In this document: positions 1 through 6,621 of the stretch, piece after piece | Position numbering within the stretch: the first letter of the stretch is position 1 | How the letters are laid out: the number at the start of each line of letters is the position of its first letter | Assembly (NCBI RefSeq): GCF_000243335.1 | Contig: NZ_JH597773.1 | Location: 2,597,684 to 2,661,683, forward strand | Direction: 5' to 3' | Length of the DNA: 64,000 nt | Source of the DNA: Leptonema illini DSM 21528 | GTDB lineage: Bacteria > Spirochaetota > Leptospiria > Leptospirales > Leptonemataceae | The notes under the pieces: generated by a model | Told to the model about the DNA's origin: nothing | Database searches by the model: none | The model's input: only the letters and a program-made list of their open reading frames with translations | Made by a program: the position numbers and the translations under genes

Positions 1-660
1 GCAGAAGGGGCCTTCTGGTCCATCGGCGAACTGATCAATAACGCCAATAAGGCGAATAACCGCTGGGCGCTGCTCGAAAGCGCTCTTGTGCAGCGTGTGA
101 CAGCTGAAGATCCGTCGGCCGATCGCGAGGTCGTCGTCGAAGACGTACAATCGGCCATCGAGCATAACCAGGCCGACGTTCTTAAAAGGTACGGTCTCGA
201 CAACATCGACCTGACAGCATCCATTCTCAAGCTGATCGAAAAGCATCGTACGAACTCGTTCGCATTATCCGAGCGCTTTCATAAAAAGATCACGCTTACG
301 CTGCGCGTTCAGAAAAAAAGCGATCAGCGCATCCTCATCGTAAACGTGATCAACAATTCGCCGATTACCGTCATCGACCGCGAGCGCGTCGAGTATAACC
401 TCGAACGAATTAAAGACGACCTCATTCGCGCCGGAGCGCATCCTTTTGAAGCGGCCGTCAACCTGTATGAGAAAAGCGCCGACCATGCAGGCGGCGGTTT
501 TGGAGCGGGACTTCGAAGCATCATTCTTTTCTTGAAAGCAGGCTATGAACCCTTCGACGTTGATATCGTCTTCAGTCGCCTGATTCAGTACAGATCAGCC
601 GTAAAAAGCACGATCTTCACGATTGAAATACCGATCCCCATACGCAAGAAGGCCAGATGA
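1..660 (+). CDS. GHKL/HATPase-fold protein, 5' end outside window
   Basis: The reading frame is open from the first base and stops at 658-660, so the gene starts upstream of the window. The first 30 residues contain an N-box-like ELINNANKANN, and near residue 155 there is a glycine-rich GGGFGAGL that matches the G box of histidine-kinase-like ATPases. Between them lies about 120 residues without a motif I recognise. The class is an ATP-binding GHKL domain as found in sensor kinases and anti-sigma kinases. Without the N-terminus I cannot tell which. No H-box phosphoacceptor is visible in the part shown. A GTG at 88 could be mistaken for a start, but it would remove the N box. Confidence 0.7.
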   Translation, partial: AEGAFWSIGELINNANKANNRWALLESALVQRVTAEDPSADREVVVEDVQSAIEHNQADVLKRYGLDNIDLTASILKLIEKHRTNSFALSERFHKKITLTLRVQKKSDQRILIVNVINNSPITVIDRERVEYNLERIKDDLIRAGAHPFEAAVNLYEKSADHAGGGFGAGLRSIILFLKAGYEPFDVDIVFSRLIQYRSAVKSTIFTIEIPIPIRKKAR

Positions 661-3136: not shown

Positions 3137-3261
3137 CGCCGCTCCTCTCGGGTCGCCCCGCCATTCCACATCTCAAAGAAAGGCTTTAATTTCAAGAAGC
3201 ATTCGATTTTTCTTTGCAGGAGGCCGATCTAATAACAGGCTGCCTGTGGCCGGTGAAAACG

Positions 3262-4116
3262 ATGTCTGCACGACTCCTGTATAGCATACCTGCATTCCTT
3301 CTCGCCGTCGGATTGTACCTTTTCGTTCGCCAGCCGCAGGCCGGTGTAGCCGAAAAACGAGGCGAGTATCCGCGCATCCCCATTCTGCTCTTTCACGACG
3401 TCGACGGCAAAGGCCCCTACGCCATCAGCAGGCATGAATTCCGGCAGTATCTCGACATCCTCAAAGAAGAGAAGATACAGGTCATCTCCCTTGCAAGGTT
3501 GCATGAGATGATGCAGAAGAAATTGCCCGCCGAACGCCCTTCCGTCGTCATCACGATCGACGACGACTTCAAGAATATCGTACGCGTCGCCGCTCCGATG
3601 CTGCGGGAGTACGGTTATCCGGCCACGTTTTTCGTTTATACGAAGAACGTCACCGACCAGCCCCGACAGGGCATGGCATGGGAAGACCTGCGGCGCCTGC
3701 AGAAAGAAGGCTTCGACATTCAGAACCACTCGCACACGCATACGGCGTTTCATGTGCCGCGTGAAGGCGAAAGCGCAGATCAGCATGCGGCCCGTGTCGA
3801 TATAGAAATCCTTCATTCACGAGAGGTACTGGAAGACCGCCTCGGTCATAAGATCTGGAGCTTCGCGTATCCGATGGGCTACCATTCGCCGTATCTTGAG
3901 AAGCGCCTGAAAGATGCCGGATACGAACTTCTGCTCACCACCGACGCCAATCCGCCTGATGTCACAAAGACGTATACGGGCGTGCTCGATCGCTTCACCA
4001 TTCAAAAAGGCAAAGATCCGTTCGGACTGTTTTACAAACAGATTGCCTTTGCACGACGAACTCTGGACGACCATTCTCTCACATTGAAAGAAGACGAAAC
4101 CGAGCCGCGGCCGTAA
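3262..4116 (+). CDS. Polysaccharide deacetylase (NodB-fold), membrane-anchored
   Basis: Carbohydrate esterase 4 family; removes N- or O-acetyl groups from a cell-wall or surface polysaccharide. The NodB motifs are visible: TIDDDF (catalytic Asp and metal Asp), NHSHTHTAF (two metal His) and FAYPMG. An N-terminal hydrophobic segment (LLYSIPAFLLAVGLYLFV) acts as signal or anchor, so the enzyme should act outside the inner membrane. I chose the ATG at 3262; the frame is open from a TTG at 3214. The gene is divergent from cimA with about 125 bp between them. Substrate unknown. Confidence 0.8.
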   Translation: MSARLLYSIPAFLLAVGLYLFVRQPQAGVAEKRGEYPRIPILLFHDVDGKGPYAISRHEFRQYLDILKEEKIQVISLARLHEMMQKKLPAERPSVVITIDDDFKNIVRVAAPMLREYGYPATFFVYTKNVTDQPRQGMAWEDLRRLQKEGFDIQNHSHTHTAFHVPREGESADQHAARVDIEILHSREVLEDRLGHKIWSFAYPMGYHSPYLEKRLKDAGYELLLTTDANPPDVTKTYTGVLDRFTIQKGKDPFGLFYKQIAFARRTLDDHSLTLKEDETEPRP

Positions 4117-4179: not shown

Positions 4180-6621
4180 ATGATTCCAGAAACGGGTCCT
4201 CTCGATCAACAGATCACGACCGTCGTCGGCGGCGGACCGATGGGCCTGGCCGTTGCCTCGTTAATCGCACGCAACGTGCGCACCGTCTATCTCTGGGTAC
4301 CCGACGCTCGCACTTACAAAAAATGGAAGAGCGAGCGTTATTTACAGGTAGGGGAGTATTCGTTCAACGTTCCGTTTAACGTCGAGATCATCACCGGCTA
4401 CGATCACTTCAAAGAAGGTTCGCATTTCCTGTTTCTGACGATCCCCTCCCGACAGTACGAAGAGGTCGTCGAAAACATCCTCTATCATCTCGACAGATCG
4501 CTTCCACACTTTGCCGCGAACATCACCAAGGGATTCCTCTCATCGTTTTCAAGACGCAAGCATCGATGTTATCTCTTTCATCAACTGCTCTATTCTCTTC
4601 GCGAGCAGCATCATCTGAATCTTTCCGTCGCTCTTGTTACGGGTCCGTCGCTGCTTTACGATATCATTCACAACAACTATGTCTTTTTCGTCGTCGCCTC
4701 TGACGATCCTTCGATGACGCAGCCCATCGTCGATCGTTTGAACGGCGAACAGGTGTACTGGTCGGCCACCGACGATATCATCGGCGCCGAGGTCGGCGGC
4801 ATCATGAAGAACCCTCTGGCCATTCTCGGCGGCATGGTCGAGGCGCTGCCGCATGTAACGAGTTCTCTGCTCGGCGAGCTGATGGCGGCCGGATTCACCG
4901 AGATGAAGAAGCTCAACGCCGCGCTCGGCGGACGCGAAGAGACGATTCTCGGACGTTCGGGCCTCGCCGATCTCGCGGCCACATACTTCAGCCCGCAGGG
5001 ACGCAACCGATCGTATGGACGCAGCTTCACCGAGAAGCTGATCAGCGGCGAACTCAGTCCGAATCTGATCGATCAGATACAGCTCTTTCTCGTTCCTTCT
5101 CTCTTCATCGAAAGAGAGGTGCTTTCCAGCAAGAACCTCGCCGAGGGCGGACTGGCCATCACACCGATCATAGAGATCGCCACCGAGTTCAACATAGACG
5201 TTCCGCTCAACAGAGTGCTCTATGATATCTTTCTGCGCCGCAAATCGCCCGAAGACATCATCACGCTACTCACCGGCAAGACGGAGCGCCGCAATCGCAT
5301 TCCCGTCGTGAAGAAGAAGGGTCGCGTCGAACTGATCGCCTCGGGTCGTATGATCTCGGATCACCTTCGCGAGCGCATTCTTCATCGCATCACGCTGACG
5401 CGCGGCATGCAGGCCCGCATTAAAAAGCAGAGCGGCCATATCATCTCCTCCCTTGAAAAAAGGCGGGCAAAGGCTTTGCATAAAAAACAGCGCAACGACG
5501 CGAAGAACTTCGGTCGTGAGCTGATGCTCTGGAAGGAGCTGGCCGAATGCCGCGAAGAGGAGGAGCTGCAATACATCGAACAGCTTGTTCGTTTCTATGC
5601 CGATTCCATCGCCGACTACTATGTTCCGGCGGCGCGCACGATGCTGATGCGCTTCGTCTCGCCCTTTCGCTGGATTCTCGGCGGTTTCCGTCGAGGCAGC
5701 GTCGGCCCCATCGTCAACGGTCGCATTCGCGAGATTCGCAAGCTGGTGGATAACTATCCCGTCTTCTATGTGCCGACGCACCGCACGCATATCGATTCGG
5801 TGGAGCTCGTTTACGGCCTTTTCTTCAAAGGCTTTCCGCTGCCGCGATTCGCCGCCGCCTCGATCCTCATGTCGAATCCGATCTGGGGAGCCTTTCTGAA
5901 GTCGATGGGAGCGTACGCCGTCGATCGCGAGAATACTCGAAACATCCTCTATCTTGAAGTGCTCACGCAATACACGACGATGATGCTTGAATCGGGCATC
6001 CCCGCTCTCGCCTACCCCGAGGGCACGCGCAGCCGCACGGGCGAGTTTCAGTCGATCAAAACGGGCCTGCTGTCGACGGCCATCGATGCCTTTCGCGAAT
6101 CCGGACATGAGATCATCATTCTGCCGATATCGATCTCGCATCAGTGGATCCCCGAAGATGAGGTCTTTAACAATCAGGCGAACGATACCGGCTTCTGGAC
6201 GTATGTCTTCAGACGACGGCGCACGTATATGGACCTCGGCGAGCCGATTCGCGTATCGGATTTTGCCGATAAAGAAGAGCCGACTCATGAAATCGCCTCG
6301 CTCATTCTGAAGAACTGGAAGCAGGCCTACAGGCTGCAGCCTCATTTCATCGTCGCTCGCATCCTCGACGATCATCCGGGTATGATCGATCGGGATGAGC
6401 TGCTTGCGAAGATCGAGGCCTTCCTTGCTTCTTACACTGGAACGGTGCAGGAGACGCGCCCCGAGAAGGTTCTGAAAATCGGCCTCAAGCTGCTCAAGAA
6501 GCGAGATCTCATCGCAGAAACGCGAAAAGGATTCGAGATTCTCAATCCCTCTCTTGTCGAGTACTACGGCAACTTCGTTCCCATCGGCAAAGATCCGAAG
6601 CCCGAAGACCCTGAAGAATGA
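4180..6621 (+). CDS. Fused glycerol-3-phosphate dehydrogenase / glycerol-3-phosphate acyltransferase
   Basis: An 813-residue protein with two complete enzymes. Residues about 10-370 form a GpsA-type dehydrogenase (dihydroxyacetone phosphate to sn-glycerol-3-phosphate): dinucleotide-binding VVGGGPMGLAVA, IMKNPLAILGG with the catalytic Lys, and GRNRSYG with the substrate-binding Arg. Residues about 470-740 form a PlsB-type acyltransferase: the HX4D motif appears as HRTHID near residue 533 and the phosphate-binding motif as YPEGTRSRTG near 611. A basic, helical linker of about 100 residues joins them. The product of the first domain is the substrate of the second, so this is the entry to phospholipid synthesis in one chain. 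The start ATG has no strong ribosome-binding site. Function of each half is secure; acyl donor (ACP or CoA) is unknown. Confidence 0.88.
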   Translation: MIPETGPLDQQITTVVGGGPMGLAVASLIARNVRTVYLWVPDARTYKKWKSERYLQVGEYSFNVPFNVEIITGYDHFKEGSHFLFLTIPSRQYEEVVENILYHLDRSLPHFAANITKGFLSSFSRRKHRCYLFHQLLYSLREQHHLNLSVALVTGPSLLYDIIHNNYVFFVVASDDPSMTQPIVDRLNGEQVYWSATDDIIGAEVGGIMKNPLAILGGMVEALPHVTSSLLGELMAAGFTEMKKLNAALGGREETILGRSGLADLAATYFSPQGRNRSYGRSFTEKLISGELSPNLIDQIQLFLVPSLFIEREVLSSKNLAEGGLAITPIIEIATEFNIDVPLNRVLYDIFLRRKSPEDIITLLTGKTERRNRIPVVKKKGRVELIASGRMISDHLRERILHRITLTRGMQARIKKQSGHIISSLEKRRAKALHKKQRNDAKNFGRELMLWKELAECREEEELQYIEQLVRFYADSIADYYVPAARTMLMRFVSPFRWILGGFRRGSVGPIVNGRIREIRKLVDNYPVFYVPTHRTHIDSVELVYGLFFKGFPLPRFAAASILMSNPIWGAFLKSMGAYAVDRENTRNILYLEVLTQYTTMMLESGIPALAYPEGTRSRTGEFQSIKTGLLSTAIDAFRESGHEIIILPISISHQWIPEDEVFNNQANDTGFWTYVFRRRRTYMDLGEPIRVSDFADKEEPTHEIASLILKNWKQAYRLQPHFIVARILDDHPGMIDRDELLAKIEAFLASYTGTVQETRPEKVLKIGLKLLKKRDLIAETRKGFEILNPSLVEYYGNFVPIGKDPKPEDPEE

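Follow-up and report, generated by a model that had tools for sequence, protein, structure and literature searches.

The first acylation of glycerol-3-phosphate (G3P) is the step that commits carbon to membrane lipid. In bacteria it is known to be carried out by PlsX/PlsY or by PlsB, beside a separate GpsA. PlsB itself is a stand-alone protein, about 800-900 amino acids long. PlsB-type enzymes can use acyl-CoA and PlsX/Y cannot, and E. coli without PlsX/Y is rescued by a raised G3P supply, e.g. from GpsA (PMC11633183). In human GPAT1, R318 and R320 contact G3P (PMC11011501). A fused protein is described in myxobacteria, where MXAN_1675 carries a GNPAT-like acyltransferase, of the same broad class, joined to a reductase for ether-lipid synthesis (PMC9131029).

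We analysed a window of 64,000 nucleotides (the whole stretch of DNA under study) from Leptonema illini 3055T. Positions 4180-6621 of its plus strand hold one open reading frame with an ATG start, 813 codons and no internal stops, whose features are listed in Table 1. The first-pass annotation had read it as a single polypeptide joining GpsA and PlsB activities. The domain search places both enzyme types in the one 813-aa frame, with three Pfam domains (NAD_Gly3P_dh_N, NAD_Gly3P_dh_C and Acyltransferase) all above their curated cut-offs, and the architecture recurs in 16 of 22 genomes of the family; GPAT_C reached 13.6 bits, below its cut-off of 25. Both enzymes are well known, and the joined architecture is unusual, a bifunctional fusion of consecutive enzymes, without being categorically new. 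In the open-access literature, searched for the fusion and for first-step acyltransferases of Leptospira and with most subscription journals outside the search, we found no description of a GpsA-acyltransferase (GpsA-AT) fusion or of a reversed one, which agrees with the earlier impression that no protein of this architecture had been characterised.

Table 1. Features of the GpsA-AT fusion gene and associated loci (positions in the window unless stated otherwise)
Feature	Residues	Position	Strand	Basis or remark
Polysaccharide-deacetylase-like gene, upstream		3214..4116	+	neighbour kept in closer relatives
Whole fusion gene, GpsA-acyltransferase	813 aa plus stop	4180..6621	+	ORF, Pfam, family recurrence, model
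NAD_Gly3P_dh_N (Rossmann part)	14-178	4219..4713	+	Pfam 1.5e-11; structure match to GpsA 3k96
GxGxxG (GGGPMG), within NAD_Gly3P_dh_N	17-22		+	
GpsA active-site lysine	K117	4528..4530	+	kept in 9 of 10 homologues, H in one
NAD_Gly3P_dh_C (substrate part)	199-361	4774..5262	+	Pfam 5.9e-24
GpsA catalytic lysine and asparagine	K210-N211	4807..4812	+	invariant in ten-homologue alignment
GpsA substrate-site D and RN motif	D264 to N276	4969..5007	+	invariant; R275 = human GPD1 R269
Low-confidence joint between halves	369-389	5284..5346	+	pLDDT under 50
Helical region preceding acyltransferase	389-500	5344..5679	+	model; alignable in sister fusions
Acyltransferase core (PF01553)	519-653	5734..6138	+	Pfam 6.3e-18; GPAT1 structure match
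Motif I, HRTHID, catalytic HX4D	H534-D539	5779..5796	+	H and D invariant
Motif II, GAYAVDR	577-583	5908..5928	+	alignments; PlsC-like DR where PlsB has RR
Motif III, EGTRSR	614-619	6019..6036	+	R617 and R619 align with GPAT1 R318 and R320
C-terminal region, weak GPAT_C match	681-787	6220..6540	+	E 0.04, or 0.014 with the half alone; below cut-off
Reversed AT-GpsA fusion		C1 about 2,517,082-2,519,172; L012:193-2295	-	outside the window, about 83 kb upstream of the GpsA-AT gene

An AlphaFold2 model built from 14 aligned sequences (mean pLDDT 81.9) assigns residues ~10-366 to a GpsA fold and ~390-808 to a glycerol-3-phosphate acyltransferase (GPAT) fold; its pTM of 0.52 leaves the relative placement of the halves uncertain. 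The N-terminal half matches GpsA 3k96 (VIA Z 37.4 over 324 residues at 2.2 A; Foldseek E-value 1.2e-15), and the C-terminal half matches human GPAT1 8e4y (VIA Z 24.8 over 365 residues at 4.2 A, model range 296-808; Foldseek E-value 3.3e-10).

The N-terminal half is a diverged member of GpsA, predicted from its sequence to reduce DHAP with NAD(P)H. It carries the Pfam domains above cut-off (45-85 bits per domain), the fold and the active-site K, K-N, D and R-N residues, of which K210, N211, D264, R275 and N276 are invariant across ten full-length homologues at 36-53% identity; for K210-N211 we assume the role of K204/N205 in human GPD1, from family knowledge. The divergence is seen in the NCBIfam GpsA subfamily models, where the fusion stays below the cut-offs (147.8 vs 257 bits and 122.2 vs 202 bits). 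A recent local fusion of the family's stand-alone GpsA was rejected by the AU test (p 3.9e-6).

The C-terminal half is of GPAT type by kinship and forms a separate subfamily rather than an orthologous PlsB; acylation of G3P at sn-1 is predicted. Its domain, HX4D and EGxRSR motifs, profile, fold and tree position all lie on the PlsB/GPAT1 side. Profile searches reached solved PlsB at 3e-18, GPAT1 at 7.5e-17 and PlsC at only 0.027, spirochaete PlsB-like proteins aligned with 99% probability over 322 columns, and a tree of acyltransferase cores placed this half beside PlsB/GPAT1 and opposite PlsC, with a split support of only 89/89. Among the NCBIfam acyltransferase models PlsB scored best (86.5 bits), and the PlsC-type model AGP_acyltrn (TIGR00530) gave 43.7 bits against a cut-off of 102.95; an identity as PlsC is rejected by profile, tree and fold. 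The first-pass label "PlsB" was thus right in pointing to a GPAT/PlsB-like rather than a PlsC-like enzyme and too exact as a name, since the score falls far below the PlsB (TIGR03703) cut-off of 618.5 bits and motif II reads GAYAVDR where PlsB has GAFFxRR. The same annotation had noted that both halves keep their catalytic residues, and these proved invariant or nearly so among the ten homologues, including H534 and D539 of the HX4D motif, R583 and E614-R619. Several genomes outside the class also encode an unfused PlsB-like protein (about 500-575 aa; L123:348-2069:-), which aligns with the acyltransferase half, has a similar C-terminal end and is a possible relative of the fused part.

Both halves are under purifying selection in close homologue pairs, with a non-synonymous divergence of about 0.02-0.23 that is near equal between them; synonymous sites are nearly saturated and divergence was obtained by a simple counting method, so that the ratios are rough. 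Public records with the fusion are named Leptospiraceae, Leptospirales, Spirochaetaceae or Spirochaetales. In a pattern-limited scan across 84,980 species genomes, full-length relatives turned up only in spirochaete-named or name-less bacterial MAGs; a Clostridia MAG gave one weak acyltransferase-only match. The upstream polysaccharide-deacetylase-like gene is a possible operon partner; in three relatives (L049-L051) its frame and the fusion frame overlap at the start codon. In one MAG (L053:8001-10471, G012:C3:235129-237166) both fusions are interrupted by frameshifts or stops, reflecting either sequencing error or real decay.

We searched the almost gap-free L. illini assembly (4,522,760 bp in 3 contigs; main contig C1, 4,325,094 bp). 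Three GpsA domains were found: in the GpsA-AT fusion, in a canonical stand-alone GpsA (333 aa, 435 bits) and in a fusion of reversed order. PlsX is present (L043); PlsY (PF02660) gave no match in the genome, in a search that was positive in 8 of 14 controls, and no PlsB-like match was detected in the genome besides the GpsA-AT fusion. Apart from the two fusions, the genome encodes eight acyltransferase-family proteins, and the six scanned (all except L044 and L045) scored best as PlsC-type or acyl-ACP--phospholipid acyltransferase models. With PlsX but neither a detectable PlsY nor another PlsB in the genome, the GpsA-AT fusion is a leading candidate for the first-step acyltransferase; it is probably one such enzyme and perhaps the sole one. 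Across the family, PlsY is missing from all nine genomes carrying a form of the fusion at at least 50% identity and present in all seven carrying the form at 36-39%. L. illini depends on long-chain fatty acids, which it also uses as a source of carbon (PMC3746420).

The reversed fusion of L. illini has 701 aa, acyltransferase then GpsA. It was found in 21 of 22 family genomes (in some split by contig ends or frameshifts), in 8 of 8 genomes of the sister family and in 3 of 4 tested of a third family. Its acyltransferase half matches PlsC (1.9e-8) and plastid GPAT (6.8e-8) about equally and falls on the PlsC side of the acyltransferase tree, opposite that of the 813-aa fusion. Its GpsA half lies on a separate branch from the other fusion's, and a common clade of the GpsA halves of both orders was narrowly not rejected by the AU test (p 0.058). 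Since the two acyltransferase lineages differ and the domain order is opposite, it is simpler to assume two separate events, and the two orders apparently arose independently, as judged mainly from the acyltransferase halves and the reversed order; the tree positions of both halves disfavour a single origin, with the AU test just short of rejecting it. Three small genomes (G003, G010 and G014, 81-92% complete; L036, L040 and L041) yielded no GpsA other than the reversed fusion, and searches for PlsX, PlsY and PlsB in them were negative. The reversed fusion may therefore share or own the role of first acylation.

A related GpsA-AT protein was found in about 39 genomes from six other spirochaete families, outside the class. 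The GpsA halves of this outer set and of the Leptonema family are sisters (100/97) and the joining region is alignable, which is most simply explained by a single fusion that was later inherited or transferred. The outer GpsA halves are canonical (about 260 bits for the two that were checked), and the fusion is the sole GpsA in all five genomes checked. Its acyltransferase halves (L084-L100) lack the catalytic histidine in 16 of 17 cases, and none of the 17 keeps EGTRSR. Other PlsB-like proteins or stretches occur in 16 of the 18 outer genomes searched, and PlsX was found in none of the 18. Since the acyltransferase half of this sister fusion is broken, a fusion alone is no proof of coupled catalysis.

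We favour, with moderate confidence, a bifunctional enzyme that would convert DHAP, NAD(P)H and acyl-CoA/ACP to lysophosphatidate, a reading in which both activities, the G3P acceptor, the acyl donor and any channelling are predictions. NAD(P)H-dependent reduction of DHAP in the N-terminal half would yield sn-glycerol-3-phosphate; the C-terminal half would then acylate this G3P to lysophosphatidate, with acyl-CoA and/or acyl-ACP as donor, for PlsC-type enzymes to complete. The attached GpsA could give a PlsB-type enzyme a high local supply of G3P, and such a fused source would suit a PlsY-less cell fed with acyl-CoA. The folds, both conserved sites, selection, the kinship with PlsB/GPAT1, the motif III arginines, the missing PlsY and other PlsB, and a second, reverse-order fusion from another acyltransferase branch speak for a bifunctional enzyme. 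So do the use of acyl-CoA by PlsB-type enzymes, the rescue of E. coli without PlsX/Y by more GpsA or G3P (PMC11633183) and the long-chain fatty acid requirement of L. illini (PMC3746420). Against it count the diverged GpsA half beside a canonical GpsA, the PlsC-like motif II, the sister fusion with a dead acyltransferase half, the seven family members that retain PlsY beside the fusion and the pTM of 0.52; moreover, the true GPAT may be the reversed fusion, which is the only GpsA in three relatives where PlsX, PlsY and PlsB were not found.

That the gene is an artefact of assembly or annotation merging two neighbours, or of a frameshift, has a negligible probability: we found no point in support of it, and the joined frame and the alignable helical joining region recur across many separately assembled genomes under separate public contig names, which led us to reject it. 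An arrangement with one catalytic half and a regulatory, docking or sensing partner, for example an active acyltransferase governed by a GpsA-like sensor of DHAP or NAD(P)H, is unlikely; in its favour, the six-family sister fusions pair an intact GpsA with an acyltransferase lacking catalytic residues, so that a non-catalytic partner has been retained in this architecture. In L. illini the diverged half is GpsA, and a normal GpsA exists alongside. However, both sites are invariant or nearly so across 36-53% identity within the Leptonema family, and in close pairs the two halves show equal constraint, which argues against a half freed from catalysis.

A different acceptor is a quite unlikely alternative: DHAP, with a GNPAT-like acylation whose acyl-DHAP product is then reduced by the GpsA-like half, lysophosphatidate as for PlsC, or another lipid. 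Acyl-DHAP routes exist in eukaryotes and have been proposed in myxobacteria (PMC9131029), and the DR of motif II and the PlsB score far under its cut-off would agree with another acceptor. Yet profile, tree and fold put this half on the PlsB/GPAT1 side and not with PlsC (in a comparison set without GNPAT), the GPAT1 residues that contact G3P have their counterparts in R617 and R619, and other PlsC-type enzymes are present in L. illini. The GpsA family is known to act on DHAP, not on acyl-DHAP, which also counts against an acyl-DHAP route.

Beyond the bifunctional enzyme itself, we tentatively propose a wider scenario that we would not yet rely on. In Leptospirales-type spirochaetes, GpsA and a GPAT-like acyltransferase may have been joined in two independent events, once in each domain order, yielding DHAP-to-lysophosphatidate synthases with their own G3P delivery; these might have enabled the loss of PlsY and the building of membranes from exogenous fatty acids in L. 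illini and its relatives, and in a sister lineage the acyltransferase might have decayed, leaving the only GpsA of the cell with a tail that has no catalytic function. A fused dehydrogenase-acyltransferase would open phospholipid synthesis in a new way and offer a natural case for testing substrate channelling, and it bears on why PlsB-only E. coli needs extra G3P (PMC11633183). Because the reversed fusion is present throughout the order, the coupling may be relevant to lipid physiology in spirochaetes other than L. illini. Comparing active with decayed sister fusions offers a way to ask about the tail's role apart from catalysis. What makes the system interesting is that the fusions seem to have arisen convergently, that PlsY is missing and that a sister form has decayed.

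Compared with known systems, the fusion covers the same pathway step (G3P to lysophosphatidate) as PlsX/PlsY with a separate GpsA, PlsY being an unrelated membrane enzyme that uses acyl-phosphate and was not detected in L. illini. Its N-terminal half shares fold and active-site residues with GpsA (Coxiella 3k96, human GPD1) and differs by the C-terminal acyltransferase and by a sequence that has diverged from the canonical GpsA also encoded by L. illini. Its C-terminal half has the fold, HX4D, EGTRSR and tree position of the G3P 1-O-acyltransferases PlsB and human GPAT1, from which it differs as a separate, GpsA-fused subfamily with GAYAVDR in motif II and no clear GPAT_C. The reversed Leptospirales fusion likewise combines both kinds of enzyme in a single polypeptide, but in opposite order, with a PlsC-side acyltransferase that has a plastid-GPAT-like stretch and with a GpsA of a separate branch. 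In MXAN_1675 the reductase is a FAR1-like fatty-acyl reductase, where the L. illini fusion has GpsA instead. The GPDH of Dunaliella (6iuy), a structure match to the fusion, is likewise fused to a second enzyme; its partner domain, however, we take to be a phosphatase acting on the G3P made, and not an acyltransferase.
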